In this document: positions 6,728-62,636 of the stretch, piece after piece | Numbering within the stretch: position 1 is the stretch's first letter | Layout of the letters: every line of letters starts with the position of its first letter | Assembly (NCBI GenBank): GCA_934045905.1 | Contig: OW203768.1 | Span: 23,713,060-23,777,059, forward strand | DNA length: 64,000 bases | Direction: 5' to 3' | Source of the DNA: Leuctra nigra | Taxonomy: Eukaryota > Arthropoda > Insecta > Plecoptera > Leuctridae | Made by a program: the position numbers and the translations under genes | The notes under the pieces: generated by a model | What the model was told of the DNA's origin: nothing | Databases searched by the model: none | Seen by the model: only the letters and a program-made list of their open reading frames with translations

Positions 6728-7110
6728 GCGAGAATTTTTCTGGCAAAGACTTCGTAAATGGGACGTAAATTGACTGTGACAAAAACTCTAATAACTTACT
6801 TATTTATACAAATAGAACTCAGATTTCGAAATGGAGTGTACATACTGTGTTCTGACAGCTATTAAATCAGTTAAATGAAGGATATATTAATATTAAATAT
6901 GCCCTATTTCGAATTTAAAAAATTAACATTTTTTAATCTAGAGAGTTTTCACGACCCCAATTTCATCTCAGAACTATCGTGAATGACATTTTAAAACATA
7001 ATCTAGTTGGATCAACCATTTATTTCACTTCAAAAATGTAAAAAATTGAATTTTATAAAAATAATTTTTTCTCCCATATACGAAGTCTTTGCCAGAAAAA
7101 TTCTCGCTTA
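6728..7110. mobile_element. MITE-like insertion with 36-bp TIRs in the hAT gene
   Basis: Arms at 6728-6763 and 7072-7107 are inverted copies differing at about one position (start GCGAGAATTTTTCTGG, inner end AAATGGGA). The ~310-bp AT-rich centre has no ORF. CGGGAT occurs directly left (6722-6727) and right (7111-7116). Removing 6728-7116 restores the hAT reading frame across GAA AGG TTC GCG GGA TTT GCT GAT, which fixes the boundaries. The right end carries an extra TTA, so the TIR/TSD limit is uncertain by three bases. The superfamily is not assigned. Confidence 0.82.
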
Positions 7111-8434
7111 CGGGATTTGCTGATGTGTCCAGCGACAGAAGTGCTGCTGCTTTGGCTCAGCATGTCTTTGGTGAACTCGAAAACTTCAAATGTTCTTCCA
7201 AACTCATAGCCCAAACCTATGACGGAGCTTCTGTGATGGCAGGTCACTTGACAGGACAACAGGCTCGTGTGAAAAGCGTTTGTCCAGAAGCAATGTTTGT
7301 TCACTGCTGTGCGCACCGCCTGAACCTTGTTCTGTCCCAGGCGCTGCAATTTTCCAACATTACGGAGTGTAAAGTATTCTTTAAAACCATCACTGGATAT
7401 GCTACATTCTTCAGCCATTCAACAAAACGGATTGTTGAGTTGGACAAGGAGGTGAAGAAAAGGTTCCCTTCAGTGTGCCCTACCAGATGGAGTTATAATG
7501 GGAGGATAGTGGAGACGCTCTTCGAGTACCGGCAGGAGCTAATCGACATGTTTCAAGGCATACTTGATAATCCAGACGACTGGGACAATGAAACGTACAA
7601 TGCGTCGCGTGGATATTGCCTGTTTTTGAAGGAATTTGATTCCAACTTTTTGCTGGTGATCTTCTCCGATCTGTTTGCTTCGTCGGATTCTCTGTTTAGC
7701 ATCTTACAGAAGAAGACAAGTGATATCAAATATTGCTTGTCAAAAGTTGCAGAGTTTAAAAAAACTTTGCAGACGAGGAGAGAGAGCTTTGAGCACTACT
7801 GGACGAAAGCGGAAGAGTCCTGCCGTTGAAGAAGCGTCTGCGTGTCGCCGATCTCGGTGATGTCAAAGCCAGCTATCGCCGATTATTTTGCGAGATCATC
7901 GACAATATAATCCGGCAAATAAGCGATCGCTTCAAGGACCTCCCACAGCTTCTGTTCCTGGAGCTTCTATGTCCAGAAAAGTCACTATCTTTTTCTAAGT
8001 CATTTCCAAACCAACAATTTGATTCTTTGAAAGTGAATTACGGAAATTTTTTTGACTTTCCGCGGCTCCGTAGTGAGCTAATTGCTGTGTACAGCTCAGT
8101 GGATATGCAGAGTAAGGACATTTTTGAGTTGGCAACTTTCCTCGTATCTAATGGTCTTGATGTTGCTTTCCCTCAAGTCACTCGACTCTGTCAGCTTATT
8201 CTCACCGTGCCAGCTACCAGCGTCTCCGTGGAAAGGTAATTTTCTGCACTGAAGAGAATCAAGACGTATGCCAGGAATGCGATGAGACAGAATCGGCTCT
8301 CAAGATTGTCGATGATGTCTATTGAAAAAAACCTCCTAGTGTCTTTGTTACAATCAAACAAACCAGCATTTGTAAGTCGCGTCATTGACGAATTTGTTAA
8401 AAAAACAAGGAGGTTTGAACTAATTTACAAGTGA

Positions 8435-22799: not shown

Positions 22800-23216
22800 A
22801 TGCCCAGCTGTTGTGTTTTCGAATGTAAAAATAGGACTGATCATACTATCATTGATGGCATTAATATAAGTTTTCACCTTTTTCGAAATCGAGATAAATC
22901 TCCCGTCCGCCAAAGCCTGGGTGGAAAAAAAATATCACGCGATAAATTCTCACCAAGTGCGAGGTCTGTCGTTTGTTTAACACATTTCACTACCGATGAT
23001 TTTGAAGTGGCGTCGCTATTGAAAAGTCAGTTTGGCCTGAAAACTAAGCCAAACCTCAAGAAAGGCGCCATTCCAACAATAGGAATGAGGGGATATTTAG
23101 CCATAGCTTCTTCGTCCGAGTCACTAGTTAAGAGGCGCCGTGAATCTGCATATTTACGAAAAGTGCGAGGTCACAGTGCGACAAATCAAAGAAAAATAAA
23201 GATAGTGACAAGTTAA
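22800..23216 (+). CDS. THAP-type zinc-finger protein, N-terminal exon
   Basis: ATG 22800 opens a frame starting MPSCCVFECKNRT. It has the C2CH layout of THAP domains: Cys5 and Cys9, then C59-L-T-H62 in VVCLTHFTTDDFE, and a GAIPTI motif (residues ~89-94) equivalent to the AVPTIF box. THAP domains bind DNA; they occur in host regulators and in P-element-type transposases. The usual conserved Trp between the two halves is not seen (Ser/Pro/Val there), so folding may be impaired. A basic stretch (LVKRRRESAYLRKVRG) follows. The frame stops at 23214-23216, where LINE sequence begins in another frame; the original C-terminus was probably removed by the LINE insertion. Host gene or THAP transposase cannot be decided. 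Confidence 0.72.
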   Translation: MPSCCVFECKNRTDHTIIDGINISFHLFRNRDKSPVRQSLGGKKISRDKFSPSARSVVCLTHFTTDDFEVASLLKSQFGLKTKPNLKKGAIPTIGMRGYLAIASSSESLVKRRRESAYLRKVRGHSATNQRKIKIVTS

Positions 23217-25703
23217 TAAACCTAATGGCATCATACAACCTAAAAATGATGATAAAAGAGCCAACAAGAATCGACCTTAAATATCACACACAGAAAACTA
23301 TAGATAATATAGCGACAAATCTACCAGAAAATATCTTAACTACGAAAGTCATAGAAAATGGTTTATCAGATCACATGGCACAACAAATCGAAATAGATTT
23401 TAAAGTAGAAACAGATCTTCCAAGAAAGACTATTAGAGTAAGAAAACTAAATACAGAAAACACAAAAGAATTTATAGAAATGCTCAAAGTTCAATCCTGG
23501 GATGATATATACATTACACAAGACCCTAATGAAATGTATAACACTTTCTCACATATTATATGCAAGGTCTTTGACATATGTTTTCCGGAGAAAACTATCA
23601 AAATAAACAATACATTCATAAAGCAGCGATGGATCACCCCAGGCATTAAAAAAGCAAGCGAAAACTTAAGATGTCTCCATCAGCTATATACACACTACAG
23701 AAACGATTTTCTAAAAATAATACACAAAAAATACAAAAAGATTTACAGGAAAACAGTTCGAGCTGCTAAGGCAAGAGAGATAAACCATAAAATTTTAGAA
23801 AAGAAGGGCATAGAAAGAATCAAAACAGTTTGGGACATAATAAAGAAACATACCAACAATACAAAGAAAGGGAATGCAAAAAACATAGAACTAATTCAGA
23901 ATAATCAAGTTATAAAGGATCCAAAACAAGTATCAAACATTATGAATCGTGACTTTGCTAACATGACAGAGAAAATAACAGAGAAAATCAAAACAACCAA
24001 AAACTCATACCAAGAACACTTAAATCATACAAAAAAAAAACTAAATCACTCTATTTTGGGCTTACTTCAGAAACGGAAATTAAATATGTAGCTTCGAGGT
24101 TAAAAAACACTAGAGCGAGTGGAGTTGATAACCTACCAACCGTGATACTAAAAAAGTCTATAAATGAAATAGCAAAGCCCCTATCACATATATTCAATGT
24201 CTGCATAGAAAAAGGAATATTCCCAGAGAAATTAAAAGTTGCAAAAATTATTCCAATACATAAAAAGGGAGATAGCAGATTAACAGAAAACTATAGACCA
24301 ATCTCTATTTTACCCTCTATCTCCAAAATATTAGAAAAAATTATGCACAATAGAATTTCATATTATCTAGAAAAAGAAAAAATTATATCGGAGAGCCAAA
24401 GCGGATTCAGAAAAAATAGGGCAACAACTAACACGATGGAGCATTTCATAGAAAATACAGTAAAAGGTCTCGAAAGTGAAGAACTAACTACTGGTGTCTT
24501 CTGTGACCTATCAAAAGCTTTCGATAGTATAAACCATTCAATTTTAATAAATAAACTAGAATATTACGGAATAAGAGGGGTACCACTTGAACTAATCAAA
24601 TCATATATAACAGGAAGAATGCAACATATAGAAATAACTTCGACTAATAAACAAAATATAGAAAGTAAAATCCTTTCCGATCAGATTGAAATAACAAGTG
24701 GCGTCCCACAAGGATCCATACTTGGACCACTCCTATTTATAGTCTATGTAAATGATCTTGCTGATAATATTAGTGAAGCGGAAATGTTTGCGGATGATAC
24801 TAACCTAACAATAAAAGGTAGAACCAAAGAGAAACTACAAGAAAATTTTCATAAAACACTTAGTAACACAATAACATAGTTCAATAATAACTACTTATTG
24901 CTGAATACAAGCAAACCCCAGAATCCAATTCTGGGGTAATTCAACAGATGCCCACATAATATTTGCCATTCAAAGAAAAACAATAAGAACCATTTTTGAT
25001 CTTCGCCAACCAAAAAATACTTACAGGAAGCCTGATTGCAAACCAGTTTTCATAAAAGAAAAGATATTAACATTCCCATCTTTATACATTTTAGAATCTA
25101 TTTTACTTATAAAAAAGAACAAAGTAATGTCCACAAACAATGACATACACAATCATAACACAAGACAGGGAGCGAACATTCACACAAACCACCATCGGAC
25201 AAAATGTACTCAAAATAATTCAACCTACATCAACTCACTGCTCTACAATGCTCTGCCACTCTCTATTAAGGACAAAAATATCAGCTTCACTGAATTTAAA
25301 CACAAACTTAAAATTCTCTTAACAGACAAAGCCTATTATTCTGTAGATGAATATATGCAGGACAAGAACTGAGGCGTCAGTTGTCAAATTCATTTAGACT
25401 TAGTATTTTATTTTATGTTAAGTATACTTCATTACCTACTATATTTAATTATTAATAAACTGTACAAAATATGCAACTAAACATAAGTTACTTTTAAGAT
25501 ACCTACTTGATAAGGAGATCATCAATATTTATAACCTCATATTCATATGTACATAATATTCTTTCCATGCTAATCTTAAGATTACTTTCCATACACCTGC
25601 ACACTGATACTTGTATCATAGGGTATTATATTTGTTAAAATGCTACATCTGTAATGTAATAACAAATTTGGAAATAAAAACTACTACTACTACTACTACT
25701 AAC
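23190..25703 (+). mobile_element. CR1-like LINE, 5'-truncated, (ACT)n tail
   Basis: The element starts inside the endonuclease coding region right after the THAP exon and ends in a (CTA)n run at 25680-25700 following AATAAAAA. No convincing TSD was found, so the left flank (THAP) and right flank (piggyBac subterminal sequence) may have been joined by rearrangement. Confidence 0.8.
23225..25372 (+). pseudogene. LINE endonuclease-RT pseudogene, CR1/Jockey superfamily
   Basis: The first block (23225-24090) is the endonuclease C-terminus (MMIKEPTRID, NGLSDHMAQQ) and the basic linker. After a frameshift near 24060-24090 the RT follows: ENYRPISILPSISKILEK, GVFCDLSKAFDSINHS, SGVPQGSILGPLLF and FADDTNL (~24788). 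TAG at 24877 ends this frame. An internal deletion near 24935-24965 then joins LLLNTSKPQ to IFAIQRKTIRTIF, removing most of the thumb. The last block (to 25372) has the conserved HNHNTRQGAN and YNALPLSIKD C-terminal motifs and ends KAYYSVDEYM. It cannot make a functional RT. Confidence 0.83.
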
Positions 25704-28646
25704 AGCCCAACGGGACTCCTCAGTCATGGTTTCAGAATGAATTCAAATATAGTGGGTCCAAGTAGTTCCTGAGAAAACCGATAGATAGAGTACTTTGTCC
25801 ATCACTGTGGCGCTCTCATGGCAGAAATTGAAGGCTCAAACAAAATATTTTTTTCCTGTGCGAACTGTCACTGGGTAAGTGTTTTTATTTTTGTAACAAT
25901 TAGTTTAACTATTATAAGTTATTAACAAACATTTGGTTTTGAGTAATATCACCTATAAAATAAAGAAAATGATTATAATTTCATTAGGACTCTGCAGTCC
26001 CGACGGGCATTTGGGTCTGAATGTGATCTTATTTTTGAAACATTTTATAACCCTACTTTTTTATGACGTTTTGACTAAACCTTGATTAATTTATTATTTT
26101 CACCATTGTATTGTAATTAGATATTAATTTTCTTGTTATATATTTTATTCTTATACCTATTTATATTATTGCAGAATTATGCTAACATGTCTTTCGGAAG
26201 CCTATGTTCAGTGATAGCGAAATCGAATCCGTATTACTTGAAGAAATACCAGGAGATCAGTATGGTGATACAGACATTGAAGATGATGATGATGATATCC
26301 CACTCGACATCGATGCTGACCGAGAGAATATTTTTGATGCAATATTCAATGCCGAAGTCGACCGTGAAGCTCGTTCTGCTGATTTGTCTGTCAACGATAA
26401 CGATGAAATTGAAGAACAGACTGTAGTGATCCAATCTAATGGTGTCACCAATGATGTGATACCAGCAGATGTGTCTGCATCTACTTCAATTGTTGATTCT
26501 TCCGGTACAACAGCAGGACCTTCGGCAATTCCGGCGAAACCAAAATCAAAGATACCACCCGTCGTAAATCGGAAATGGAAGAAGCGATCTGTTGATTCTT
26601 GGTTACCTGCCTACACTGATCATGTAGGAGTGATGGAAGATTTGTTTGTGGCATGTGACACTGCCACAGACATATTTCTCACATTGATTGAACCCATCCT
26701 TGATGGAATTGTTTACCAAACAAATCTGTATGCAACGCAGAAGAACAAAACGATGAATATGAAACGAAACGAGTTACTTGTATTTATTGGGATCAATTTC
26801 CTTATGGGATACAACAGATTGCCTTCATGGAAGGACTATTGGTCTACTAGTCAAGACTTAGGCGTTTCTATGTCGGCAGTGCAATGAGTAGGAATAGGTT
26901 TGACCAAATCTTGACTCTCCTGCATGTCAACGATAACACTCAAGTCCCAGTAGGAAACAAGGACAAACTGTTAAAATTGAGACCAATGATCACAGGCCTC
27001 AACGAATCATTCTCAAATGCAACAAGCGGCAGCCGTGAGTTGAGTATCGATGAGTCGATTATATTGTTCAAGGGACGCAGTTCTTTGAAACAATATAACC
27101 CGATGAAGCCAATCAAAAGAGGCTACAAGCTCTGGTGTTTGGCGGATCAAGCAGGCTTTATAATGAAGTTCAAAATATATCAAGGCAAGGAGGAAGAATG
27201 CGAAGAGAATGCGTTCAAAGACTTTGGACTCGGAGAACGAGTTGTTCTCGAACTAACGCAGAAGGAATGGGGAAAGCATCGAAAGTTATATTTCGACAAT
27301 TTCTTTACATCGCTGCCTCTACTAGAGAAGCTGAAAACCGAACAAACTTTGGCATGCGGGACGATTCGTTCAAATAGGAAAGGACTGCCAGACAACTTTA
27401 CAGTGGACAAGTCAATGAAGAGAGGCGATTACGACTATCGTATTTCAACTCAGGAGATCGGTGTGTTCAAATGGATGGACAATAAAGCAGTACTCATCAC
27501 AACCAACTTCCACGGATCGAAGGATCGTACGACTGTGCAGAGAACACAAAAGGATGGCACCAAGATGACGGTAAGCTGCCCTTCCGTTATCGAAGACTAT
27601 AATCGTCATATGGGGGGTGTTGACCACGCAGATCAACTCCGTGCATTATATTGCGTAAGCAGAAAGTCACGGAAATGGTGACATCGCATCTTCTTCGGCC
27701 TTCTTGACATTGCCTTTGTTAATTCTTTCATCATTTATTGCCAACTGCATGAAAAAATCACAGTAAAAGAGTTCCGAAGGGCAGTGACTCAAGGGTTGTT
27801 AGCCATGGCTCAAACTCGAGGTCCGGGTCGGCTTAGTGCAGACATCCTCCAGAAAAGGAAGAAAGGAAATGAGAAGAGTGGGCCATCAAAGAGGCGCGGA
27901 TCATCAGTGTCTGTCCCGAACGACATGCGAATTGGAAATCGTGGGTGCCACTGGCCGCAGTTTGTGGCCGCGCGAGGTCGCTGCGAACTGTGCAGCATGT
28001 CATCTATCGAGTCCCGTCCCTTCTCTATGTGCTTACACTGCAAAGTATATCTTTGTTGCAACAAGGAGAAGAATTGCTTCGCGAAGTACCACGACATCCA
28101 AGTCTAAAAGGAAAGAATCGAGAAGACACTGCTCTGCAGTAACTTGTTCTTTCCGCTTCGATCAATTTATTTTGCGGCAAATATATTTTTATTGCTTCCT
28201 TAGAACTGTACATTTTTTAAATAATGTCATCTATTATATTTTCAATTATTTTGCTCTTTTCAATTTCAAATGTGACAGCAAATCATGAAATGTAAATTTT
28301 TCTGTCGGCAGCGATCAACTTATTTTATGCAAATTATTTTTTTATAAATTAAAATAATCTCATTTAGGTACTACATAGTATTTATATTTTCTTGTATTTT
28401 CCTTTTTTCAATTACAAATGTGACAATAAGTTGACAAATATAATAAATAACGTGTATCACAAGTAAACATGTTTACTCTACTCAATTGCCCGACGGGACT
28501 GGCAAGTCCCACCATTAAAAATTAACCTCATTGTTGAAAAAAAAATCTGAAAAAATTCACATGTCTCTACTTATAGGTATATTAATGAAGTAATCACATA
28601 AAACGTGAAATATATATTTTTTTTTAATGGGTTGGTCTAGAAAGGG
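25704..28646 (+). mobile_element. piggyBac element PB1 (left terminus not found)
   Basis: The right end is GGGTTGGTCTAGAAAGGG followed by TTAA (28647-28650), the piggyBac target. Subterminal CCGACGGG(A/C)-type motifs lie at both sides (25998; 28490, inverted), and CCCAACGGGACTCC occurs at 25709. The expected left end (TTAA followed by the CCCTTT-type terminus) was not found, so 25704 is only the boundary with the LINE tail. Confidence 0.78.
26204..28107 (+). pseudogene. piggyBac transposase PB1 (one frameshift, one nonsense codon)
   Basis: ATG 26204 follows an acceptor-like TTATATTATTGCAG. The N-terminus is acidic (IEDDDDDIPLDID). The DDE-type core has the three expected Asp positions: SIDES (27049), YFDNFFTSL (27295), and GGVDHADQ (27622 and 27631). 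The C-terminus is the Cys-rich finger CELC...CLHCKVYLCC. Two lesions: a 2-nt gain (or 1-nt loss) at ~26878-26886, where SMSAVQ-stop overlaps MSRNRFDQ, and TGA at 27679-27681 where the family has Trp (KW-W-HRIFFG). Otherwise it is full length (~630 residues), so inactivation is recent. piggyBac enzymes excise and insert precisely at TTAA. Confidence 0.9.
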
Positions 28647-29960
28647 TTAAGAGAAGAACAATATGGATTTAGAAAAGACAGATCGACCATTGATTTGATT
28701 TTCGCTATGAGACATATTATGGAAAGATATTGGAAAGAAGGAAAGGAATTATGGGTGGTATTTCTAGACCTGGAAAAAGCATATGATCATTTACCTCGAT
28801 GTAAAGTATGGGAAGGCTTAGGAAAGAGAAATGTTGACCAAGATTTGATGGAAAGAGTTAAAAGTTTGTATGTTGGGTGTGAAAGTTGTGTGCAGAGTGG
28901 TAGCGGCAAGACTGAGTGGTTCTCCATAAAGTCAGGAGTACGGCAGGGAAGTGTGCTTTCGCCACTTCTATTTACAGTCGTAATGGATGATATGCTTCGG
29001 GAGGTGATATTGGGAGAAAATACCAATACTGGAGTATATGCAGACCACATTGTATTGTGGAGTGAAAGTAGAGAGGAAATACAGGCAAGAATTGAAAAAT
29101 GGGATGAGGTAAGCAAAGATTTCGGAATGAAGATTAGTAGAGAAAAGAGCGAGTATTTATTGATGACAAAGAAAATAAAAGTACAAGGTCAAGGATTGCA
29201 GTTGAGAGGTGAAGCAATGAAGAAGACAGAAGCATTCCCATACCTGGGAAGTTTGCTGACAGAGGATGCTAGATGTGGAGAAGAAGTGAAGAGGAGAGTT
29301 AAGAAAGCGGATGGATTCTATCAACAAGTAAGAAAACTTGTTTGGAACAAAATGCTCCCACTCAAATTTAAATTGGTATTATTTAAGCAATATTATTTAC
29401 CAATTTTAAGTTATGGAGCGGCTACTTGGAATATTGGGTGGAAAGAGGAAAGTATGATTCAGGCGGCTGAAATGAAATTTGTGAGAGCTATGTGTGGAGT
29501 ATCAATGTTGGACCGGATACGAAGTAATAAGTTAAGAAAGGAAGTTGGAGTGGAGCGATTGAAGCACACTATTGGAAGAGATAGATTAAGGTGGTTCCGA
29601 AAATTGAAGATGATGAAGGATACAAGATTGGCCAAAATAGAGTTTGAAAGAAATGACAATATGAAAAGAAAAGTTGGTAGACCTCGTACAAGATGGTTTG
29701 AACAGATAAAACAAGACATTGTAGATCGTGGGGTAAGTTGGGAGAGTGTGAAGAACCAAGAACTGTGGAGAGAAAAGGAGAAATGGAACGAGTTAGTGGA
29801 TAGAAAGGAAGTAGAGACGAAAGAAAGCAGTGCAGAAAAAGATGTGGATGAAATGGAAAATTGGAGAGAAGAGGTTGAGATGTGGACAGAAGAAGATGAA
29901 ATGGATTTTGATGAAGAACAAGCAGAAGGAGAAGAGAAGGAAGAAGAAGAAATTGAATAA
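28647..29960 (+). pseudogene. RTE-like reverse transcriptase, catalytic motif mutated
   Basis: The frame is open throughout: LREEQYGFRKDRSTIDLIF, WVVFLDLEKAYDHLP, GVRQGSVLSPLLFTVVMDD, then VYADHIVLW (29034-29060), AFPYLGSLLTEDA, LPILSYGAATW, and the terminal GRDRLRWFRKL and KVGRPRTRWFEQI motifs usual in RTE-type LINEs. The second catalytic Asp of YADD is His (CAC, 29046-29048), which should abolish polymerase activity. The N-terminal endonuclease and first RT motifs are missing because of the PB1 insertion. The last ~35 residues are an acidic tail (EEDEMDFDEEQAEGEEKEEE). Confidence 0.85.
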
Positions 29961-36169: not shown

Positions 36170-36315
36170 ATGATTGATGCGATATTGCCGCCACAATTTG
36201 TTGGAAAAAGGAAGAAAGAAAGTGAATTAATGGTGATAATAAAGCCGAAAGTCGGGAACAAAGTGGAAGATACTTTAAAAGTACTGAAGGAGATCATCAA
36301 TCCATATCTATTATA
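36170..36315 (+). pseudogene. Possible LINE ORF1 (Gag-like) fragment
   Basis: ATG 36170 gives 45 residues including LMVIIKPKVGNKVEDTLKVL, a pattern like the (V/I)(R/K)PK...(V)..T...L...INP block before the zinc knuckles of LINE ORF1 proteins. The following transposon insertion (TSD 36309-36315) cuts it off. No continuation was recognised beyond 40741, so the call is tentative. Confidence 0.35.
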
Positions 36316-36345
36316 TCGCACCCTTAGTGTAAAACTGTGGTATCT
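36316..36345 (+). repeat. Left 30-bp TIR
   Basis: It is the exact reverse complement of 40704-40733. It begins TCGCACCCTT and its inner part (GTGTAAAACTGTGGTATCT, 36327-36345) is the same motif that recurs subterminally, as expected of a transposase-binding site. Confidence 0.93.
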
Positions 36346-36401
36346 TCAAAAAAAAAAAATTTTTTTTTGCTCAGTTGTATTTGCAATAATGTTAGAAACT
36401 T

Positions 36402-36607
36402 AATGTAAAACAGTGGTATGTGAAGTTTCGAACGGTGTCGAAGTGGCGTCGCTTAACTGCATTTTACACTGGGCGAATTTGAAATAAATCACAGTGTAAA
36501 ACCGTTGTATCTGCAGTTACTACTGTTTTACACTTTTCTTTCATGAATATTGTTATTTTTACATCAGTGTAAAACCGTGGTATCTGCACTTACTACTGTT
36601 TTACACT
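36402..36607. promoter_or_regulatory. Subterminal repeat array, candidate transposase-binding sites
   Basis: Forward motifs: AATGTAAAACAGTGGTATG (36402), CAGTGTAAAACCGTTGTATC (36492) and CAGTGTAAAACCGTGGTATC (36566). Each of the latter two is followed ~10 bp later by the inverted CTACTGTTTTACAC (36520, 36594), forming hairpin-capable pairs. A further inverted GCATTTTACACTGGGC lies at 36459. The array sits between the TIR and the gene start, so it could also affect transcription of the transposase; that is inference. Confidence 0.75.
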
Positions 36608-36769
36608 TTGCGTTTCTATTGCTCTTGCCTTGGAATATAACATTTGCGTCTATTTCGAGGAAGCTTGATCAGCTGTTGTTGATGACAATGCTGGAGTAGC
36701 CTAGAAAGTGTTTATTAGAAAACGTAGTGATAAGATTGCATAGTTATAAGGGAGTGCAAATTACCAGCC

Positions 36770-39345
36770 ATGGAACCAAGAGGCAGAAAACTATTGTCGC
36801 TAGCTTTAGCTGCCAGTTCGGCGAAAATCAATCCCAAGGCAAGTATTTTCTGTTTATTTATAACATTACCTTAACCCTACTTTTGGTAACGTTTATTATA
36901 CGAAGTAAACAAAATATTTCTTTCTTTTAGGACCCCAATGAAGAAATATTTTACATACCAGACATTGGTCTTAATAAGGTACAAACTACGGGAGCTGAAC
37001 CTGTATTCAGTTATCAATCAATCGAACATTCAGTTCAAAGAAATGAACAAGCCGTGGACTCGGAAAAGCCACCTTTCCAAAATCTTTGGGAAGATGTGGA
37101 TGTTGATGTCCTACAAGAACTGAATCATGGTGAAAGTGATTCTGTTGACTTTGAAAAAGTGTTTGTGGTTGTTTTGAAACCGAATGAAGTGGGAGCCATG
37201 ATGGAGGAGCGGGAAGTGGTAGTTGCAGCGGAGGAGCAGGAAGAGGGAGTTGCCGTAGAGGAGCAGGAAGTGGAAGTTGCTGCGGAGGAGGAGGAAGTGG
37301 GAGTTGCCGTAGAGGAAGAGGAAGTGGAAGTTGCTGCGGAGGAGCAGGAAGTGGAAGTCATGACGGAGGAGCGGGAAGTGGAAGTCATGGTGTTGGAGCG
37401 GGAAGTGGTAGTTGCAGCCGAGGAGCAGGAAGAGGGAGTTGCCGTAGAGGAGCAGGAAGTGGGAGTCGTGGCAGAGGAGCTGCAAGTAGGAATAGGTAAT
37501 TATTAGCCTTTGTAACAGATTACTACCAAACAAAAGTGAAAAATCTGTATTTTTTATAACAGCCTGTTTAATTTTTTTTTCAGACCCACAGAAATCAAGA
37601 AAGAGGATGAGGAATGAAGACAAATGGGTTAGGAATCAGAGAAAACAGAAATTGAATTCTGGAAAGGCCTATACCACTGCAAAAGGAAAGAAGGTGGCCT
37701 CAAAGACTCTTCAAAAACCGTGCGGTGAGAAATGCAAATTAAAATGCACATCTTTTATAACGGAAGAAGATAGACAAAATATTCTGCAGAATTTCTGGGA
37801 TATAGCGGACAAACACAAACAGCAGCTTTATGTTTCAAAATGCATGACACTCGTCGAACCTAAATTTCGAAGAGTAGTAGAAGGAGGGAAACGATCACAA
37901 AACTGTTCTTACTCATTTTTTGTCCATGATCAAAATATCCATGTGTGCAAAGAATTTTTTAAAGCAACTTTAAACGTAAGTGACACGTTTATTTTGACTA
38001 CACGATGCAAACAAAATGAAACGGGCATTGTGCTTCCCGAACAGAGAGGAAAGCATTCTACTCGTCCAAGAAATATTCCTGAAGACGTCAAAGATGGAAT
38101 TCGCGAGCATATCCGGTCCTTCGCCAGGATCGAGTCACATTATTTAAGGGCTCAAACCACTCGAGTGTATATCGATGGTGGATTAACTATTCGAGAGATG
38201 TATCGGCTCTACTCGAAGCTTATGGAGGAAACTGGTGCACCTTGTGGAGAGTTTCATCTCTATTCTTCTCTGTTTAACACTGAATTCAACATTGGCTTTT
38301 TCACCCCGAAAAAAGATCAGTGCGAGTTATGCGCTCGTTATTCTAACAGCAATGATGGGGAGAAGGAGAAATTACAAGAAAAGTTTGACAATCACTTGAA
38401 AAACAAAACACTTTCCAGGGCTGACAAAGCTAAAGACGTTGAATATGCAGCAGCGAATGACAACAGTGTTGTCTGTTGCTACGATTTGCAAGCGATCTTG
38501 ACAACGCCGAATGCCGAAATATCCTTTCTTTTTTACAAACGAAAGCTAGAGCTACATTTAACTTCACTATCTTCGACATAGGTCGAAAAAATGGTCACTG
38601 CTATGTATGGAATGAGGCGACAGCAAAACGTGGAGCGAATGAAATTGGAACGTGTGTTCTCCAATTTTTAACACAACATTGCCTGACAAAAGAAGTAATA
38701 TTTTACTCCGACCATTGCGCAGGACAAAACAAAAATAAGTTTATTTTCGCAATGTACATGCATGCAGTCATGCGCCTTGATGTTCCAAAAATTACACATA
38801 AATTTTTAGTCGTGGGACACACACAAAATGAGGGTGACTCCATGCATTCATGCATTGAAAGGCAGAAAAAAAGAACTCTGAAAAGTGGTCCCATCTACGT
38901 TCCAACGCAGTGGATCCCAGTTATTCAAATGGCCAACAAGACCCGGCCGTACTTTGTTTCAGAAATGTGCACATCTGATTTCTATGACTTGCGACAACTG
39001 ACCAAGGAAATGGGAAACAACTTCACTAAAAATGTTAATCGGGAGACGGTACGTTGGGCCGATATTCGCATTGTAGAGGTTCGAAAGGACACCCCATACT
39101 CATTGCTCTACAAGACGAACTACGACGACAATGATTTTAAAGAGATCAATGTTAGAGTTGGGCAACGTGGCCGTCGATCAGTCCATTCAGAGCTGCAACT
39201 TGCGTATCTGGAGCAGCCCAAGATCACGCAAGCAAAGAAAAATGAGCTGATATCACTTTGTATCTCCAAAGTGATCCCCGAAGTTCACCATGCGTTCTAC
39301 CATGGGCTTCAGGCTAGTGCAACGGGAGACAGAGATTCTGACTAA
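36770..39345 (+). pseudogene. Spliced transposase-like gene of the 4.4-kb TIR element (single 2-nt frameshift)
   Basis: Inferred exons are 36770-36838, 36931-37495 and 37584-39345. Introns have a GC-AG (GCAAGT...TTTCTTTTAG) and a GT-AG (GTAATT...TTTTTTTCAG) border, and frame is kept across both. Total exon length is 2396 nt; removing a 2-nt gain (AAGCTAGAGCTAC, ~38545-38552) gives 798 codons including TAA. Parts: acidic exon 2 with ~10 nine-residue repeats; Cys/Lys-rich start of exon 3 (CGEKCKLKC); GKHSTRPRNIPEDV, IESHYLRAQT, FNTEFNIGFFTPKKDQCELC; then CCYDLQAILTTP, WNEATAKRGANEIG, FYSDHCAGQNKN and GHTQNEGDSMHS. I recall this motif set from a widespread arthropod 'uncharacterized protein' family (possibly the one with DUF7869). 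DLQ, YSD and NEGD could supply an RNase H-like acidic triad; that is inference. Confidence 0.85.
37202..37490 (+). repeat. Coding 27-bp minisatellite in exon 2
   Basis: About 10-11 tandem nine-codon units of the form EEQEVEVAA / EEQEEGVAV encode an acidic low-complexity segment. Alternate units are more alike (…VAA versus …VAV), implying an older 54-bp period. All unit length changes are multiples of 3, so the frame is kept. Confidence 0.85.
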
Positions 39346-40703
39346 AAATCTCTCATGGAGGTAAGTTGTCATGAAAGGTGTTGTGATTGATGGCTAAATA
39401 ACTCGATACTAACTGCTGTGTTATTATTTTGTAGACATGAAGACTAGTACTACTCCACATCCACAGAACTCTTGGACAACAATTAAGAATAGGTACACCC
39501 AACAAATCATAAAACGGTATTTGAAAGAAACGGATTCGCTGCTGGTCAGGTTCCTTGAAAACCAGGTTACTAGAGGTAGATGGCGAGTTAGCAGAGACTT
39601 CAACATTTTTTATCAGCCAAACCATTTCTTTCAAATGCCGTTTTATCATTTGATGAGTGTACTCGATTGGTTGTAGATACCTACAAATTGGCAGATCAAC
39701 TACTGCAGTTCCTTTTAACTTTAGATTTTGTGATCAAACAAGATATTATTTTCTACAAGAACTTTATTAATGAAAATGTATAGCATGAAAATTTATAATA
39801 GAATACCAATTGAAATTTGAAATAGTAGTTCAGCCTTTTTGTTTCGAAGATTATGTTGTAACTTAATGAAATACAATGAATTGATACCAGCTCCATACGA
39901 AAGAGCTACGTTTTGGGATAAATAATTTGCCAATCGTAGCTAATTGTCAGTAGAGTTATGCTTGAAGGTAACCTTTTACTTGTTATTATTATTATTAGTA
40001 TTATTAGTATTTATGACTTACTACTGATTATTATAATAATAGTATTACTTATTATTAATTACTGTCTATTATAAGAATTGACAATTGTAGTATTTGTATT
40101 GAATTTGTATGTTTCTTCTTGACTACCTGTACCTTGCATTGTATGTATTTACTACGTGACTGTCTTGTACTTGAGTGTATAATTAATTATCTGTAACCTG
40201 TAATACTACCAAATTTGTATTTGTATTAGCAAATATGCTAAACGAAATAAATTACTACTACTACTTAAAAAGATATTCTAAATTTTGAAATTTTATTGCA
40301 TTATTTAATATTGTATAGGAACCTAATTCTTTCCTAACAAGCCTTGTAATTATGATCAAACAATCACTCAAATCCACGGAATCTTCACTGTTCACAAACT
40401 TATTAATGTAAAGCAATAGCATCTTCAATAAAGCTATGGTGTCAACATTACGTTTAGTAAAATTCATAATAGTAATTGCTGAAAACCATGGTATCTACAA
40501 TATCATTAGCATTATTCATAATGTAAAACAGTGGTAGCTATAAATCTCTATTTAATTGGTAAAAACAGAAAATTCTTCATTATCTCTGACAATATACATT
40601 GTTTGGATCAATTGGAGCGAAAAAATATATAAATTTTACCATACCTGATTTGTCATAACAATTTCAAACTTCAACCCCCATTATCTCGAAACTACATAAA
40701 TGC
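39346..40703. other. 3' region of the 4.4-kb transposon
   Basis: Right after the stop codon, CATGGAG|GTAAGTTG (39361) and TATTATTTTGTAG|ACATGAAG (to 39434) make a plausible 74-nt 3' UTR intron. 39437-39676 is open but conflicts with other frames and shows no domain. Further right are ATTATTATTATTAG microsatellite-like runs (~39985), AATAAATTACTACTACTACTT (40247) and diverged subterminal motifs (40481, 40521). Confidence 0.5.
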
Positions 40704-40733
40704 AGATACCACAGTTTTACACTAAGGGTGCGA
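40704..40733 (-). repeat. Right 30-bp TIR
   Basis: It is the exact reverse complement of 36316-36345, ending AAGGGTGCGA directly before the right TSD copy TATTATA. Confidence 0.93.
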
Positions 40734-41174
40734 TATTATAACCGTGTCAGCTCCATGGTAACCATTCTTGGGTACAAAAAGAATAGATACACCATGTGTC
40801 GTTCTACATGCCAAAGTGATCTAAATTAAATAATATTTTAAGGGCTGGACTGAAAAGCATACACTTTTGTGGCAAAACTTATAGAATTAGGTTATTCTTC
40901 AATTTGCTTTGTATTGCTACAATAAGTTTACATATCCCCTGATGACAAGCTTTGAAGGCACACATCCGAAATGTCTGCTGTGACAGGCATAGGAAACTTG
41001 AAATAAGCAAGTTTCTGCCGAAGGGCGATGATTACTACTGGCTGATTTTTATTTTGTATTACTTTTTTTTGAAAAAGTCAAAAGTTTGACTTGACAGAAC
41101 ACTTCTTTTGATCTTCCTAATTGTATATAATGTGTCAATATAAAAGATCAGTAGTTAAGTGGGTCTTTGTTCGT

Positions 41175-42909: not shown

Positions 42910-44465
42910 CGGTAATATTCTGATGAGTTTATTGACAGCAACGTTTCGACCGACTTGTATCAGTCTTCCTCAGGCTTATGACTGACAGATTAAACAATAC
43001 AGACAACAGGTGGTTATGAAAAACAAAACTAAACTAACTTGAATACATAAATAATGTATCGCGTTGTGGTAAACGCCTCGTCACATGTTTTGAACGACGC
43101 TTCGCGGAGTGTTCTTGCTAAGGGGCTCAACTTTGCCTTTGCGCCATCTCGTCTGCCTTTTGAGCGCATCGTGTGTGGAGTTGAGGCAGCTGTCCGTCAG
43201 CTTCCACAACCTGTAGCGGAACAACTCAGACAAGACACAGTGACCATCTAACGCAAAGCCAAATCTCCAGAATCTAATGTCACTCCTGCTGAAGGGCGGG
43301 CGTTAATAGAACTTCGGAAAAACCATGATGTTACTATCATGACGGCGGATAAGGGCAAGGCCACAGTAGTAATGGACACAGTTGATTATAAGGCTATGAT
43401 CAATACCTTGTTATGTGATCCAACTTATGTATTGATGGCCAAAGACCCTTCTAACTCCCTCCCTGGAGAAGGCTACTAGAAATATGATCAGATACTCGCC
43501 GATGGATGAGACGACAAAGAATCGCATTATGCCACAGGTAAATGGATCAAGAGTGCCACGTTTCTATGGTTTACCGAAAGTGCATAAGACTGGAATGCCT
43601 CTTCGACCTATTGTCAGTGCAGTAAACTCTCCAACGCAAGCTCTTGCTAAACATCTTGCAAAACGTCTTCAGCTATTCGCGGAGCTTAAAAACGCAGTAC
43701 ATTTTGTAGAGCTTCTACAAGACATCAAGCTGAACCCGGGGGATCTGATGGTGAGTTTCGATGTGGTGTCATTGTTCCCCAGGGTTCCAGTTGATGATGC
43801 TGTGGAGATCATATCATCAAAGTATAAGCAGCCTAAGTACGTCGTGGATATGGTCCGCCACTGCATGTCGTCAACTTATTTCATCTTTGTTGGTCGTTTC
43901 TACAAGCAGGTAGATGGCGCACATAGGGGGTCGCCGCTTTCTCCTGTGATAGCAAATCTCTACCTTGAAGACTTCGAAGACCGGGCGCTAGACTCTGCAC
44001 TGCTCAAACCATCATGTTGGCTCCGGTATGTGGACGACACGTTTATCATCTGGACGCACGGGAGGGACGCTTTGGATGACTTTCTAGCACATCTTAACTC
44101 CATCCATGCGAACATCCAGTTCACCATGGAAGTCGAAGAGAACCGCAAGATTCCTTTCTTGGACTGCATGGTGACCAAGAGAGAAGATGGAAGGTTGGGC
44201 CATTCTGTGTATCGGAAGCCGACACATACGAATCGCTACCTGAATGCTGCCTCTCATCATCATCCGGCTCAGGTGCGGTCTGTGGCATACACGCTGGCCA
44301 CGCGCTCGAAGAGGATCACGGATGCTGATCAATTGCAGGAGGAGGCGGGTTTTCTTCGGGAAACTCAGCGACAGAATGGTTATCCTAATCGCTTGTTCCA
44401 CCAATCATGGAATCGGAAGCCGAGGTCAGAAGAGACGGTAGCTGATAGTTCGGGAGTGGGAGGAG
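42910..44465 (+). mobile_element. Penelope-like element, truncated
   Basis: ACGTTTCGACCGACTTGTAT followed by CAGTCTTCCTCAGGCTTATG (42950-42980) is the characteristic PLE 5' terminal motif. The RT pseudogene follows. The endonuclease and 3' terminal repeat are missing; the match ends near 44465, where unrelated AT-rich sequence starts. Confidence 0.85.
43054..44465 (+). pseudogene. Penelope-type reverse transcriptase pseudogene
   Basis: The N-terminal region reads NASSHVLNDASRSVLAKGLN and FAFAPSRLPFERIV. TAA at 43249-43251 interrupts it; the same frame continues ELRKNHDVTIMTADKGKATV and DPTYVL. A frameshift near 43475 then leads to the RT core: VPRFYGLPKVHKTGMPLRPI, PGDLMVSFDVVSLFPRVPV, RGSPLSPVIANLYLEDFE and the catalytic WLRYVDDTF (~44022), then FTMEVEENRKIPFLDCMVT and GHSVYRKPTHTNRYL. 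The catalytic aspartates survive. The C-terminal GIY-YIG endonuclease is absent, so even a repaired frame would lack the nicking domain. Confidence 0.88.
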
Positions 44466-44877
44466 AAGAAGAAGAGCAAGTGCGTCCCAAAGTTGCTTTC
44501 TTACACGCTAAAATAAAAGTACGGAATTTTGCGCTCTTTTAAGGAGTGAATCACTCAATTGAACTTTTTGAGCGAAAAATGGTACTTTTAGATTCAAATT
44601 TGCTACTCTCTCAGAAGCGGAGATTTTGTGCTCTTTTTAAGCCATTATTTTAGTCTTCAAAAGTTCCGTAAAAATATTCACTCCTGAAAGAGCGTATACA
44701 TTCCTCTAAATTAGCGCGAAAAGAGCAATAAAACGCATCTTAGAATTTTCGCTCATGAAAGAGCTAGTAGCTGCTCGAAAACTGATCAAAAAGAGCTAAA
44801 GGTTAAATTCAAGGTTGTTGAAAATCTCCGATTTGTCACGCTTTGCACATCTTGCACATTGCGATCCTGAAAGCTAC
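44466..44877. other. AT-rich junction with diverged inverted repeat
   Basis: ATTTTGCGCTCTTTTAAGGAGTGAAT (44526) has a diverged inverted partner ATTCACTCCTGAAAGAGCG (44676). AAAAGAGC and GAGCG(A/T) motifs recur throughout. This may be a small non-autonomous element between the PLE and the minus-strand LINE; no TSD was identified. Confidence 0.45.
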
Positions 44878-52845: not shown

Positions 52846-53444
52846 TGTCTCATAAATCGCCAAGCCTGATTTATGCATCAAGTTAAATTTCACTGACACA
52901 AGTTCGCTCAGGCAGTCGCGCCCAGGATAATGCGGAGAAAGATGCCACCGCCGCAGCAGCAGCTCAGCAGCAACTGCCGCAGTTCTACCTTCAATTCCCC
53001 GACCAGTTGGCCCCGCTGAGGAATGTGGAGGAGGGGAGTTCCGTACAAGAACGTTCCCCTTACCGGGGGAGAAAGACAAGGAACTGCAAGTGTACACCTA
53101 CAGCAGTGTGCGGTAATTGCAGAATTACGGCCTTTCGAGCTCGGGAAAGGGAAATGAAATGAAAGCGGCCGCAAGAGCAAGCCTAGGAGCATGAGCCAGA
53201 GCCAGAGCAATGCCAACAGTGTTTGGCGCTGAGCACTCCGAATCCACATCAATCAGTTGAGCTACCCGAGACGACTTCAATTCCCAAACATAGTGCATCA
53301 CTCTACAAGCGCATGGCAACCTCAATACGTAAGTACAACGCATGGAAAGCGAGAAGAAGAAATAAAGATACAAATAGAAGACATTAGGAAGATTCTTGAG
53401 ATGGTTCATCTAAATTTGTTAAATTATGCACATCATGAAAATAT
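52846..53444. other. Unassigned interval left of the intact LINE
   Basis: This is more GC-rich than its surroundings. Frames contain KMPPPQQQLSSN- and CKCTPTAVCGNCR-type peptides on the plus strand, and conflicting frames on the minus strand; none is recognised. The LINE endonuclease sequence begins near the end of this interval. Confidence 0.35.
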
Positions 53445-55886
53445 ATGAAAATATATGAAAATAATCTTGCTGGGCACGGATACATGAAATGCATAAATAA
53501 GGTTACAAGAGAAGAGTTTAGAGAGAATCAGTTAACTGTATCATGTATTGACCACATCTACATAAAGTGTAAATTCACTGAGTTCAGATCTGCCATTGTG
53601 ACTACCAAACTATCAGACCATTACATGATTTTGACACATTTAATTGTAAATAAATTTGCGAAAACAGATCAATGTAATCGAACAATTTGTAAACAACATA
53701 CTTTAATTAATGAAAAATCACTCAAAAAAAGTTTAAGCGGAATTGATTGGTATGAATTTCTGAGTATTGATAATGACGTAGCTATAATTGAACAAGTGCA
53801 GAAAACCTTTGCGAGAGAATACGATAAGGCCAGAACTCAACGAGTGAAGGTAATGAAAAAGAGGGAAAGGAAGGACTGGATTACTCCCGATTTATTTGAA
53901 GATATGATGAAACGGGATCGCTTATTCAAAAAGTGGAAAAGATGTGGAAGCACTCATCCAGACAAACCTAAATTAAGATCAGAATACAATAAGTTTCGTA
54001 ATAATTTGAATAAATCTATAAATCGAAGGAAATTTAAATATTACAGCAACTTAATTCAAAAGTCAAAGGGGAATTTAAAAGTAACTTGGGAAATCATTAA
54101 TAACTTTATGGGTCAGAGCAAGAAACACACAGTTGATGAGGTGATCCACAGATATTTGGGTAAGACGTTGGACGACGAGACAATATGTAACAATTTTGCA
54201 AAAACATTTATTGATGAAATCGAAATACTTAAAATCAACTGCCCAGTAAATTTGCTAATCAACACTCAGAATGTACCGTGCCTACAATCAATGTATTTCA
54301 GACCTATTAAAGAAAACGAAGTACAAAAGTATATAAATGAAATGGATAATCGTAAGGGTCCGGGTAGTGATGGTATCCGCGTGGTTGACTTGAAACTTGT
54401 GTCTGAAAAACTATCCCCTGTTATAACCAAATATATCAATCTCAGTCTCAAGGCGGGTAACGTACCGCAAGTTATGAAATCATCAATAATTAAACCAATA
54501 TACAAAAAAGGTAACCACTTGAAATTTGGAAATTACAGACCAATTGCAAAACTGCCTATAATAGAGAAAGTAATGGAGAAATGTGTAGCATCCAGGTTAG
54601 TTGAATATCTCGAAGAATTTAAAATAATTTCGGATAATCAGTACGGATTTAGAAAGGGTAAAAGTACATCGGATCTTTTTCTGTCACTATGTGATGATAT
54701 TAATAATAATTTAAATAATATAAACCATATTCTGGCTTTATTCATAGATCTATCCAAAGCTTTCGATACGATAAACCATATTAAACTCATTGAAACGTTA
54801 GAAAATATCGGTATCAGAGGGAATTTGCTATCTTGGTTCATTAGTTACCTCAGGGACAGAGAATTTTTCGTAAATATAGGATCAAGTAGAAGTGAAACAA
54901 AGTCATGCAACATTGGTGTTCCGCAAGGTTCGGTTTTAGGACCTACCTTATTCTTGATATACATTAATAACGTCGTAAAGATCATAAAAAATTGTGCGAT
55001 ATATCTATATGCGGATGACATTTTACTTCTATCTTCTCATAAATCTTTGAAAACAGTTAATGATAACTTGCAAGAAGATTTAGATAATATTTTGAAATGG
55101 ACCCACGATAAAGAACTAACCATAAATGCCGATAAAACTAAACTGATGCACATATGTTCACCATTCAACTCAGACAGGAATCATGAAGTTAGAGTTATTT
55201 GTCACTCCCATGAGTGCTTGCATCAGTGTCCTGTCCAGGCGAATTGTCAATGTCCAACAGCTGAAAGTGTGCAACAAATTAAATATCTTGGGATAACATT
55301 AGACAAAAACTTCACTTGGAGACCCCAAATATCTTCCATATGTAAGAAACTTCGCAGATGCGTTTACATAATGTACAACTTAAAATATATCTTGCCATTT
55401 CATATCTTGCGCTCAGTTTACTTTGCCTTGGTTGAATCAATTATAGGTTATGGTCTAGTTGCGTGGGGTAACGCATCACAAACATATGTCCAGCAGGTAT
55501 ACACTCTGCAGAGAAGAATTTTATTGAACATGATCCCTGCAATTAAGTTAGACATAATTAAAAATGATTATAATATTTTCAATTTTTGTCGCACGTTGCC
55601 AATAACATTACTTTTTGAATTTAAACTCCTGATAAATTTTTATTTTTCTAATAACTTTAAAATAATAGAGACAACTGCTACACATACTAGAGCTAGGTGT
55701 GTAGGCGTTTACAAAATTCCGCGATATAATAATAAACATGGACAGCGTCAACTCCAATATATAATTCCAACATTATTTAACGAACTCCCGATTTATTTAA
55801 GGAACATTGAAAAATATATTATTTTGAAATACGAACTTAAAAAATATTTGGCCCACAAACTAGAAAAAATTTACACAACTGATTGA
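53445..55886 (+). CDS. LINE endonuclease (C-terminal part)-reverse transcriptase, intact frame
   Basis: The frame has 813 codons. Residues ~1-75 are the endonuclease C-terminus (SCIDHIYIKCK, TTKLSDHYM with the catalytic Asp-His). A basic linker is followed by the RT: DNRKGPGSDGI, NYRPIAKLPIIEKVMEK, DNQYGFRKGKSTSDLF, LFIDLSKAFDTINH, IGVPQGSVLGPTLF and LYADDILLL (YADD at 55008-55019). The thumb has KYLGITLDKNFTWRPQI. An unusual Cys/His-rich insert (CHSHECLHQC, then CQC; 55196-55260) precedes it. The C-terminus has a WGNASQTYV...LQRRIL and FNELPIYLRN pattern. RT catalytic residues are intact; only the first ~150 endonuclease residues are missing. The annotated ATG is a chance start at the truncation. 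Confidence 0.9.
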   Translation: MKIYENNLAGHGYMKCINKVTREEFRENQLTVSCIDHIYIKCKFTEFRSAIVTTKLSDHYMILTHLIVNKFAKTDQCNRTICKQHTLINEKSLKKSLSGIDWYEFLSIDNDVAIIEQVQKTFAREYDKARTQRVKVMKKRERKDWITPDLFEDMMKRDRLFKKWKRCGSTHPDKPKLRSEYNKFRNNLNKSINRRKFKYYSNLIQKSKGNLKVTWEIINNFMGQSKKHTVDEVIHRYLGKTLDDETICNNFAKTFIDEIEILKINCPVNLLINTQNVPCLQSMYFRPIKENEVQKYINEMDNRKGPGSDGIRVVDLKLVSEKLSPVITKYINLSLKAGNVPQVMKSSIIKPIYKKGNHLKFGNYRPIAKLPIIEKVMEKCVASRLVEYLEEFKIISDNQYGFRKGKSTSDLFLSLCDDINNNLNNINHILALFIDLSKAFDTINHIKLIETLENIGIRGNLLSWFISYLRDREFFVNIGSSRSETKSCNIGVPQGSVLGPTLFLIYINNVVKIIKNCAIYLYADDILLLSSHKSLKTVNDNLQEDLDNILKWTHDKELTINADKTKLMHICSPFNSDRNHEVRVICHSHECLHQCPVQANCQCPTAESVQQIKYLGITLDKNFTWRPQISSICKKLRRCVYIMYNLKYILPFHILRSVYFALVESIIGYGLVAWGNASQTYVQQVYTLQRRILLNMIPAIKLDIIKNDYNIFNFCRTLPITLLFEFKLLINFYFSNNFKIIETTATHTRARCVGVYKIPRYNNKHGQRQLQYIIPTLFNELPIYLRNIEKYIILKYELKKYLAHKLEKIYTTD

Positions 55887-60903: not shown

Positions 60904-62636
60904 ATGTCAAACAGCGACGCACAACAGAAACAAAACACAGCCTGGTAATACGACTTTACCACCATTAGACGATCTGGCAACGTTGGAAGAAAAGCGACGT
61001 TTGTTTCAAAGCAAGTTCCTGCTGTCGATGTTGTTCCTCTAGATGATTTGCCTCAGCCAAGGACGCCTCTAGAATACTTCGATGAATATTTCCCTACTAA
61101 TTTCTTCGATCTTGCTACCGAGTACACCAATCGTTACTGTTAGGCAAAAAGCGGCAAAGAGTTGAAAACCACTGCAGACGAATTGCGCCAGCTATTTGGA
61201 ATGCACATCCTCATGGGATGTATTCAATATCTACGTATCCGGATGTACTGGTCTCACCGACTAGAGATAAGTCTCATCGCAAGAACAATGCCTCGTGATC
61301 GGTTCTTTCGTCTTCGGACTAACTTACACTTCGTTAATACAGTTGACGTTTCTGACGATACAAAGAAAAACCGGCTTTGGAAAGTGCAGCCAATTATCGA
61401 TTCCGTCCGTAACAGATGTTTGTCAATAGATCGGTCAGCAAAAACGTACTCAATCGATGAACAAATGATTCCGTTTAGCGGAAGGTGTAGTCTGAAGCAG
61501 TACGTGCCGAACAAACCACGGCCAGTTGGGTTGAAAAACTTTGTTGTCACAACTTCAAACGGGCTCGTAGTGGATTTTGAAGAGTATCAGGGAAAGTCAA
61601 CGCCACTCCCTGATTGCGATCTGGGTCTTGGCCCATCAGTTGTTTTACGATTGGTTTCGACTCTGCCAAAACATTCTTGGGTATTTTTTGACAGATATTT
61701 CACGACTGTACCATTGATGGATGCGCTGACAGAACTGGATCTCGAGGGAACGGGAACTATGATGGCCAACAGAGTAAACAGTATTACTTTTCGAAAAGAC
61801 ACACTGCTCGCTCGAGGTGAATTCGAAGAATTTGTTCAAGAAGATGGTAATCATTACTCGATGGAAAGATTCTAAAGCTGTCACAATGACTTCAACTTGT
61901 CTGGGGACCGAGCCACTCGAAGAAGTCCAACGATGGTCTAAAAAAGACAGTAAGTTCATTACCGTTCCATGCCCAGCAGTTGTCCGTATGTACAACCAAT
62001 GCATGGGCGGGGTGGACATCTGCGATCAACAGATGGAGGTTTACCGCACCTTCATTAAAACGAAGAAATGGACGTTGAAGACGACGCTTCACTTCATGGA
62101 CCTCGGGATTGTGAACTCGTGGATGGAGTACAGAGATGAATGTCGAGCCCTCAACATTCCTAAGAAGAAAATTCTGGATCTCTTGGCTTTTAGAATGTCT
62201 CTCGGAGAATCGCTCCTGTCGTCACATGTTGAAAGCCAACAGGTTAGTTCTACCTACATAGAAATAATGCAGTTTCTAAAATAACACTAAACTTGTAGTT
62301 CTTCAATGAGTAGTATCTAAGTAAATAATTTGATTTGACAGAGAGGCAGTCAAGAAGTTCAAGGGGCCGTGACCATCGCCACTCAGCGGCACCAGCCTGG
62401 CTCATCACATAGCAGCGACGTGTCCGTGGAGTCCGAACCGCCAGCGAAGAAGCTCAAAGTTATGCCAATACCTTTTGATGCGACGAGGTTGGATGGCTTT
62501 GCTCACTGGCCAACTTTTGACGACTTGGCAACGGCCGTAAATGTCGGCGATCGAACTGTGCAAAGCGGTGCCGCTCACGCTGCATCAAGTGTGACGTATA
62601 CTTATGTCTAAATAAGGACAGTAACTGTTTTATTCA
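60904..62636 (+). pseudogene. piggyBac (PGBD-like) transposase PB2, several lesions
   Basis: ATG 60904 starts MSNSDAQQKQNTAW; TAA 60946 and TAG 61141 interrupt an otherwise continuous frame with TPLEYFDEYFPTNFFDLATE. The core has SIDEQMIPFSGRCSLKQY, WVFFDRYFTTVPLM and CMGGVDICDQQMEVY, i.e. the catalytic Asp residues. A frameshift near 61835 precedes TRWKDSKAVTMTST. A 99-nt intron with GT-AG borders (62243-62341) keeps phase between ESQQ and RGSQEVQ. After another frame change (~62520) the Cys-rich finger reads CRRSNCAKRC, CIKCDVYLCLNKDSNCF. More decayed than PB1 and from a different piggyBac lineage. Confidence 0.87.

Follow-up and report, generated by a model that had tools for sequence, protein, structure and literature searches.

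A 64,000-nt stretch of the Leuctra nigra genome (GCA_934045905.1, contig OW203768.1, positions 23,713,060-23,777,059 of the forward strand; hereafter the window) contains a 4.4-kb element with terminal inverted repeats (TIRs) and a spliced gene. We are confident that this element is a decayed autonomous cut-and-paste DNA transposon with a DUF7869 transposase of the D-D-D type, and that it most likely belongs to the Sola superfamily as a Sola2-like member. Support at the level of the sequence comes from the ends, a 4-bp target site duplication (TSD), the empty site of a sister element, non-coding elements of 640 bp that share the ends, and conservation of the D-D-D residues, to which the modelled structure of a relative adds an RNase H fold. 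A first-pass annotation of this stretch had described a TIR transposon whose spliced gene resembles that of a transposase. That description is upheld by the ends, the 4-bp duplications and their recurrence; the superfamily, which it had left unassigned, is probably the known Sola group.

Ends of the element and length of the target duplication

The window sequence displayed a perfect 30-bp inverted repeat (36316-36345 and 40704-40733) around the 4.4-kb interval, with TATTATA present on both flanks. Both features had been recorded correctly in the first-pass annotation, which took TATTATA for a 7-bp TSD; relatives with the same ends show 4 bp, starting one base further in. By the 4-bp rule the element is read as 36317-40732 with ends CG...CG, and its junctions become ATAT/CGCACCC...GGGTGCG/ATAT. 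With 4 bp as the rule for the family, the presence of TATTATA on both sides would be a coincidence of the AT-rich target. The features at the ends and in the 3' non-coding part are as follows.

36313..36316, no strand: target site duplication ATAT, left copy; read directly, with the 4-bp rule from 27/30 insertions
36317..36345, + strand: left TIR, 29 bp perfect, begins CGCACCCTTAG; recurs in other insertions
36327..36606, no strand: sub-terminal GTGTAAAACNGTGGTATCTGCA repeats on the left; 6 sites, found in either orientation, of which one is within the TIR
39487..39662, no strand: segment of the 3' non-coding part bearing inverted arms of 49 bp (39493-39541 and 39614-39662); matches elsewhere in the genome
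40478..40542, + strand: right sub-terminal repeats; 2 weak sites with 4 and 5 mismatches
40704..40732, - strand: right TIR, 29 bp; from the window sequence
40733..40736, no strand: target site duplication ATAT, right copy; by the 4-bp rule

The length of the duplication was assessed in 30 insertions, namely the window copy, nine others with its end type, eight of family C, six of the seven copies of family B, two of family D, the pair L028/L030, and one each of L033 and L031. These 30 come from seven families. In 27 of them the identity of the flanks extended over 4 bp exactly, and no insertion was identical over 3 or 5-9 bp at that boundary. The duplication was ATAT in 19 of the 27, with ATTT, AAAT, ATGT, ACAT, ATAA and ACTT accounting for the others. 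Since ATAT is very common at these sites, the discriminating test lies in the ten insertions without ATAT on the left: 8/10 had equal flanks (ATAA, ACTT, ATGT twice, ACAT, ATTT twice and AAAT), compared with 6/90 of the cross-paired flanks. The search pattern for the nine end-type insertions itself contains ATAT, so that only the ATGT and ACAT copies among them are unbiased with regard to the duplication. The ends of L028 and L030 were shifted inward by one base after inspection, and family E was kept outside the count (L052 lacks a left end, and a scan over shifts was used to choose the ends of L053, AATT/GGACC). The 7-bp rule held in one of 29 checkable insertions, that of the window.

A sister element provided the empty site. 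When the flanks of a family B copy were joined at a single ATAT, at least 41 other places matched them at 99-100%, junction included. This copy has therefore inserted into a high-copy repeat, and the original target is visible in those copies of the repeat that are unoccupied.

Nine GTGTAAAACNGTGGTATCTGCA sites were found in the element at ≤5 mismatches, whereas 200 mononucleotide shuffles gave a mean of 0.01 and at most 1. The terminal and sub-terminal copies are probable transposase-binding sites. The stretch at 39487-39662 matched 27 other listed places in the genome at 72-86%; it is probably a nested repeat. Many of these relatives sit 5.5-9 kb from a high-copy ATATCACACTTTTAGTGTAA site, which suggests a larger repeat family, perhaps related or nested.

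The probable transposase gene and its DUF7869 core

One + strand gene fills the interior of the element, as had been proposed before, and its two introns, read from the sequence, are frame-compatible. The motifs recorded earlier are present as well, but exon 3 changes frame. Residue numbers below are those of P0001, a relative 52% identical to the C-terminal frame of the window.

36770..36838, + strand: exon 1, 23 codons, MEPRGRKLLSLAL..., ATG at 36770; N-termini alike in P0013, P0048 and L024
36839..36930, + strand: intron 1, GC-AG, phase 0
36931..37495, + strand: acidic exon 2, which contains a tandem array of 27-bp units (37203-37492); from the frame list and the sequence
37496..37583, + strand: intron 2, GT-AG, phase 1
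37584..38581, + strand: first frame of exon 3, encoding a conserved N-terminal and cysteine-rich region as far as CYDLQA; from frames and relatives
38483..38485, + strand: codon of the first putative catalytic Asp (CYDLQA), D332; invariant in 18 aligned proteins, bacterial ones included
38545..39345, + strand: exon 3, second frame, putative DUF7869 catalytic core and C-terminus; open from 38461, start approximate
38710..38712, + strand: codon of the second putative catalytic Asp (FYSDH), D407; from the alignment of 18 proteins
38836..38838, + strand: codon of the third putative catalytic Asp (NEGD), D449; from the same alignment

The GC-AG border of intron 1 reads AAG/GCAAGT. The frame containing CYDLQA stops at 38579-38581, and RGANEIG, FYSDH and HTQNEGD lie in a different one; comparison with relatives placed the break near 38,545-38,560, and it is because of this break that the first frame of exon 3 ends in a stop. 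Two segmental duplicates covering the same stretch have the same lengths there, which argues against a local assembly slip. Judged from its frames, the window copy is unable to make the whole protein from one of them; open DUF7869 frames were found in other families of the genome.

Although the gene had been called unclassified, its C-terminal frame scored above the cut-off for Pfam PF25273 (DUF7869), a name that carries no function. The predicted structure of P0001 has an RNase H core (beta-beta-beta-alpha-beta-alpha-beta-alpha) whose acidic residues are located on strand 1, following strand 4 and on the final helix, and this model aligned with Mos1 and retroviral integrases when the Foldseek list was looked at a second time with VIA-align. 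Twenty columns were invariant among 18 arthropod and bacterial proteins, D332, D407 and D449 included. At the position of NEGD, relatives have MPVD, QEVD or SPD; the E is not kept, and the third catalytic residue would thus be the D. The acidic triad suggested previously (DLQ, YSD and NEGD) is supported by the RNase H fold and the invariant aspartates, with the D of NEGD as its last member. Conservation and the model support D-D-D as the catalytic triad.

Searches farther afield were negative: Foldseek of the P0001 model against BFVD gave no match at E≤0.001, a sequence search of the PDB gave none, and a protein search of phage records found no relative. The A2 scan of viral contigs returned 20 pattern stretches with no relative among them, and the TIR pattern matched 0 places there. 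Hundreds of arthropod, bacterial and metagenomic proteins are labelled DUF7869 or 'hypothetical'. Among P0202, P0182 and P0115, a Magnetoglobus DUF7869 protein is called a chaperonin in NCBI, and two beetle family members have additional C2H2 zinc fingers or a HECT domain, being either gene-model fusions or captured genes.

Copies, sister families and bacterial relatives

A search with the element covered all 536 Mb of the genome and scored the best candidates. The near-identical copies listed fall at C7 23.51-23.75 Mb, and their flanks are common to the limits of the loci (window 34786 and 42259). The gene-bearing copies of the window element are therefore segmental duplicates of one insertion, which alone would be insufficient to test recurrence. 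Those at C7 23.509-23.638 Mb (L002-L007) occur in both orientations and contain an insert at window 38731-38738 with a flanking 8-bp repeat, which we take to be hAT-like, and another insert at 40324-40325. DNA relatives at 80-93% (L009-L012 and L014, the last with one 83-bp match) were rejected as full copies, being fragments without ends.

The window end pattern gave total counts of 66/66, compared with 71/58 for the reversed control; most of the places at 3 mismatches are accordingly noise or belong to another repeat. With the C7 duplicates set aside, 22 places matched at 0-2 mismatches, of which 16 formed eight inverted pairs (L056-L062 and L064/65) and 6 were unpaired; L063 is an inverted pair at 3 mismatches. 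Seven of these nine end-type insertions constitute one non-coding family of 637-643 bp, 93-99.8% alike; at one end they match the left end of the window element at 67-69% over about 220 bp.

Searching the same genome with P0001 yielded at least 77 matches, including the window's own, and revealed several multi-copy DUF7869 families with open frames. Copy alignments gave sharp ends for families B, C, D and others, and six other DUF7869 families are each flanked by their own TIRs.

Family C: starts with CGATACATAAAAGGC; eight copies of about 3.3 kb
Family B: starts with CGTCGGTGTTTTGCC; seven copies, of which the one measured is 4021 bp long
Family D: starts with CGTCGCCCTAGTAC; 4857 bp, from two copies read
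L033: begins CGTGGGC
L031: begins CGTTGCCC
L028 and L030: begin GAAGGGTTGAG

A search with both TIR and protein had been proposed in the first-pass annotation as a check of mobility. The window ends recurred in the nine further insertions, and the six other families lay between ends of their own; the contrary pattern, homologues consistently devoid of TIRs or ends that do not recur, was looked for and not seen.

A scan of prokaryote species genomes uncovered 11 loci, from Desulfobacterales, Thiomargarita, Legionellales and Nitrospirales among other groups. Seven of them had stop-to-stop frames of 635-668 aa with motifs such as HYSWDFAQ, ADNCVGQNKNN and GHTKFSPD, and all six bacterial relatives scanned matched PF25273 above the cut-off (5e-23 to 5e-14), none of the six reaching the cut-off for a named NCBIfam model. 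A branch with full support separated the arthropod and the bacterial proteins into two groups, evidence against recent contamination. Several of the bacterial genes had inverted repeats close by. Equal 4-mers (AAAT, ATTT and AATT) flank L066, L070 and L072, and AT-rich 4-mers unequal by one or two bases flank L069, L071 and L073 (equal in 3/6 overall); nothing of the kind was found at L068. The shift at L066 was found by scan and L072 was read by eye, and each of the six bacterial genomes searched contained one copy; with two boundaries picked after looking and one copy per genome, the flanks are only suggestive of mobile units. A search with the bacterial protein as query returned 551 relatives. 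Among the 120 listed, many lie on contigs of 2.0-2.9 kb, about the size of the gene plus repeats, as would be expected of repeats that break assemblies; no transposase name occurred among these 120, most of which were nameless. The bacterial DUF7869 genes look like an insertion-sequence family unnamed in the annotation shown.

The window as a whole looks like a transposon-rich stretch. We take frames 3088-5646, 23144-24879, 28641-29960 and 53439-55886 to be like non-LTR reverse transcriptases, 26186-27681 and 61144-62284 to be piggyBac-like, 6043-7829 to be hAT-like and 43436-44542 to be Penelope-like.

Superfamily placement, mechanism and meaning

Sola1, 2 and 3 differ in their preferred duplication. 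The relevant part of PMC10741241 describes Sola as having a DDD transposase and 4-bp duplications and as occurring in bacteria and metazoans, and passages of PMC3627910 report AT-rich 4-bp duplications for Sola2 of two dictyostelids, AWWT in one and ATAT, AAAT and ATTT in the other. A classification of RNase H-like proteins, as far as its Sola entry goes, puts the superfamily with RNase H1 (PMC3985635). The DUF7869 elements resemble Sola2 in the DDD triad (by conservation and position in the model), in the 4-bp duplication with its one empty site, in AT-rich duplications that include ATAT, AAAT and ATTT, and in their occurrence in bacteria (11 loci here) and metazoa. The combination of a D-D-D transposase, AT-rich 4-bp duplications and a distribution across bacteria and animals matches the published superfamily, and the elements are probably Sola, probably Sola2, as filed by features rather than by sequence similarity. 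Their TIRs begin with CG, except for one family with GAAGGG and perhaps one with GGACC.

Besides the apparent single origin of the window's gene-bearing copies, several points weigh against the reading of the element given here. Three of the 30 insertions (two of family C and one of the window end type) showed no equal 4-bp duplication, and ATAT is so common that 407 of 870 cross-pairings of left and right flanks from different insertions agreed. The case for the fold is built on VIA-align and the order of strands and helices in one relative, P0001, and not in the window copy; Foldseek of that model against the PDB found no match at E≤0.001. The comparison with Sola was by published description, as the libraries used yielded no Sola sequence or profile, and no Sola label appeared among the names of the protein matches listed, most of which were nameless.

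One alternative is that the DUF7869 transposons constitute a separate, undescribed DDD superfamily that shares only the 4-bp duplication with Sola. Such a superfamily would span bacteria and arthropods, have CG- or GGG-type ends and have been hidden in databases as a domain of unknown function. Neither the models of Pfam and NCBIfam nor the names among the protein matches listed call a DUF7869 protein Sola or transposase, and no mention of DUF7869 or PF25273 was found in the literature searched, whose scope excluded most subscription journals and bioRxiv. However, every Sola feature tested (DDD, an AT-rich 4-bp duplication, presence in bacteria and metazoa) was found, and we consider a separate superfamily unlikely, while granting it some weight.

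We judge it highly improbable that the gene was captured from a host and that the TIRs belong to an unrelated carrier transposon. The 640-bp elements do share ends and about 220 bp with the window element yet have no long frame, and the entries for many DUF7869 proteins say no more than uncharacterized gene. Capture is contradicted by recurrence in independent families: in six others, each diverged DUF7869 gene is enclosed by TIRs of its own with 4-bp duplications, and inverted repeats surround several of the bacterial genes. A 7-bp duplication, hence an element of the hAT, P, MULE or Dada kind or of a new 7-bp class, has the TATTATA flanks of the window copy in its favor and is refuted for the family by its failure in 28/29 checkable insertions where 4 bp fits 27/30, leaving it scarcely any probability.

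Other known groups were also compared. Dada has a spliced transposase gene, as here, and a duplication close in length to the earlier 7-bp reading, but it differs in its 6-7 bp duplication, the lack of TIRs in the elements described and its small RNA gene targets, according to the portion of PMC3706591 that covers it. Dada, hAT, P and MULE-like elements, with duplications of at least 6 bp, were set aside on the counts given above. The catalytic core of Mos1 resembles the P0001 model, with no PDB match by sequence; mariner duplicates TA (PMC10741241, same part), and Tc1/mariner was ruled out by the 4-bp duplications, which include ACTT and ATGT. There was no TTAA target among the 30 insertions, and piggyBac and Kolobok, which target TTAA, were rejected.

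The proposed mechanism begins with the transposase binding to its repeats, both terminal and sub-terminal. The Cys/His cluster that is conserved in front of the RNase H core may bind zinc. The enzyme would then pair the ends and cut at CG, in an order that we can only propose, and join the ends to an AT-rich target, attacking both strands 4 bp apart; repair would leave a 4-bp duplication, usually ATAT. Conservation and the structural model lead us to infer that catalysis is by the D-D-D core of DUF7869.

PF25273 has so far been a functionless name, and the present analysis ties the family to element ends. Exact ends, 4-bp duplications, an empty site and a conserved D-D-D core together make DUF7869 a probable transposase. 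This would help to clean gene sets, supply repeat annotators with ends for searching, and make multi-copy families with open frames available for a test of activity. If the Sola filing is true, the superfamily acquires a handle in Pfam and a structural model; if it is false, a superfamily would be missing from the catalogue.

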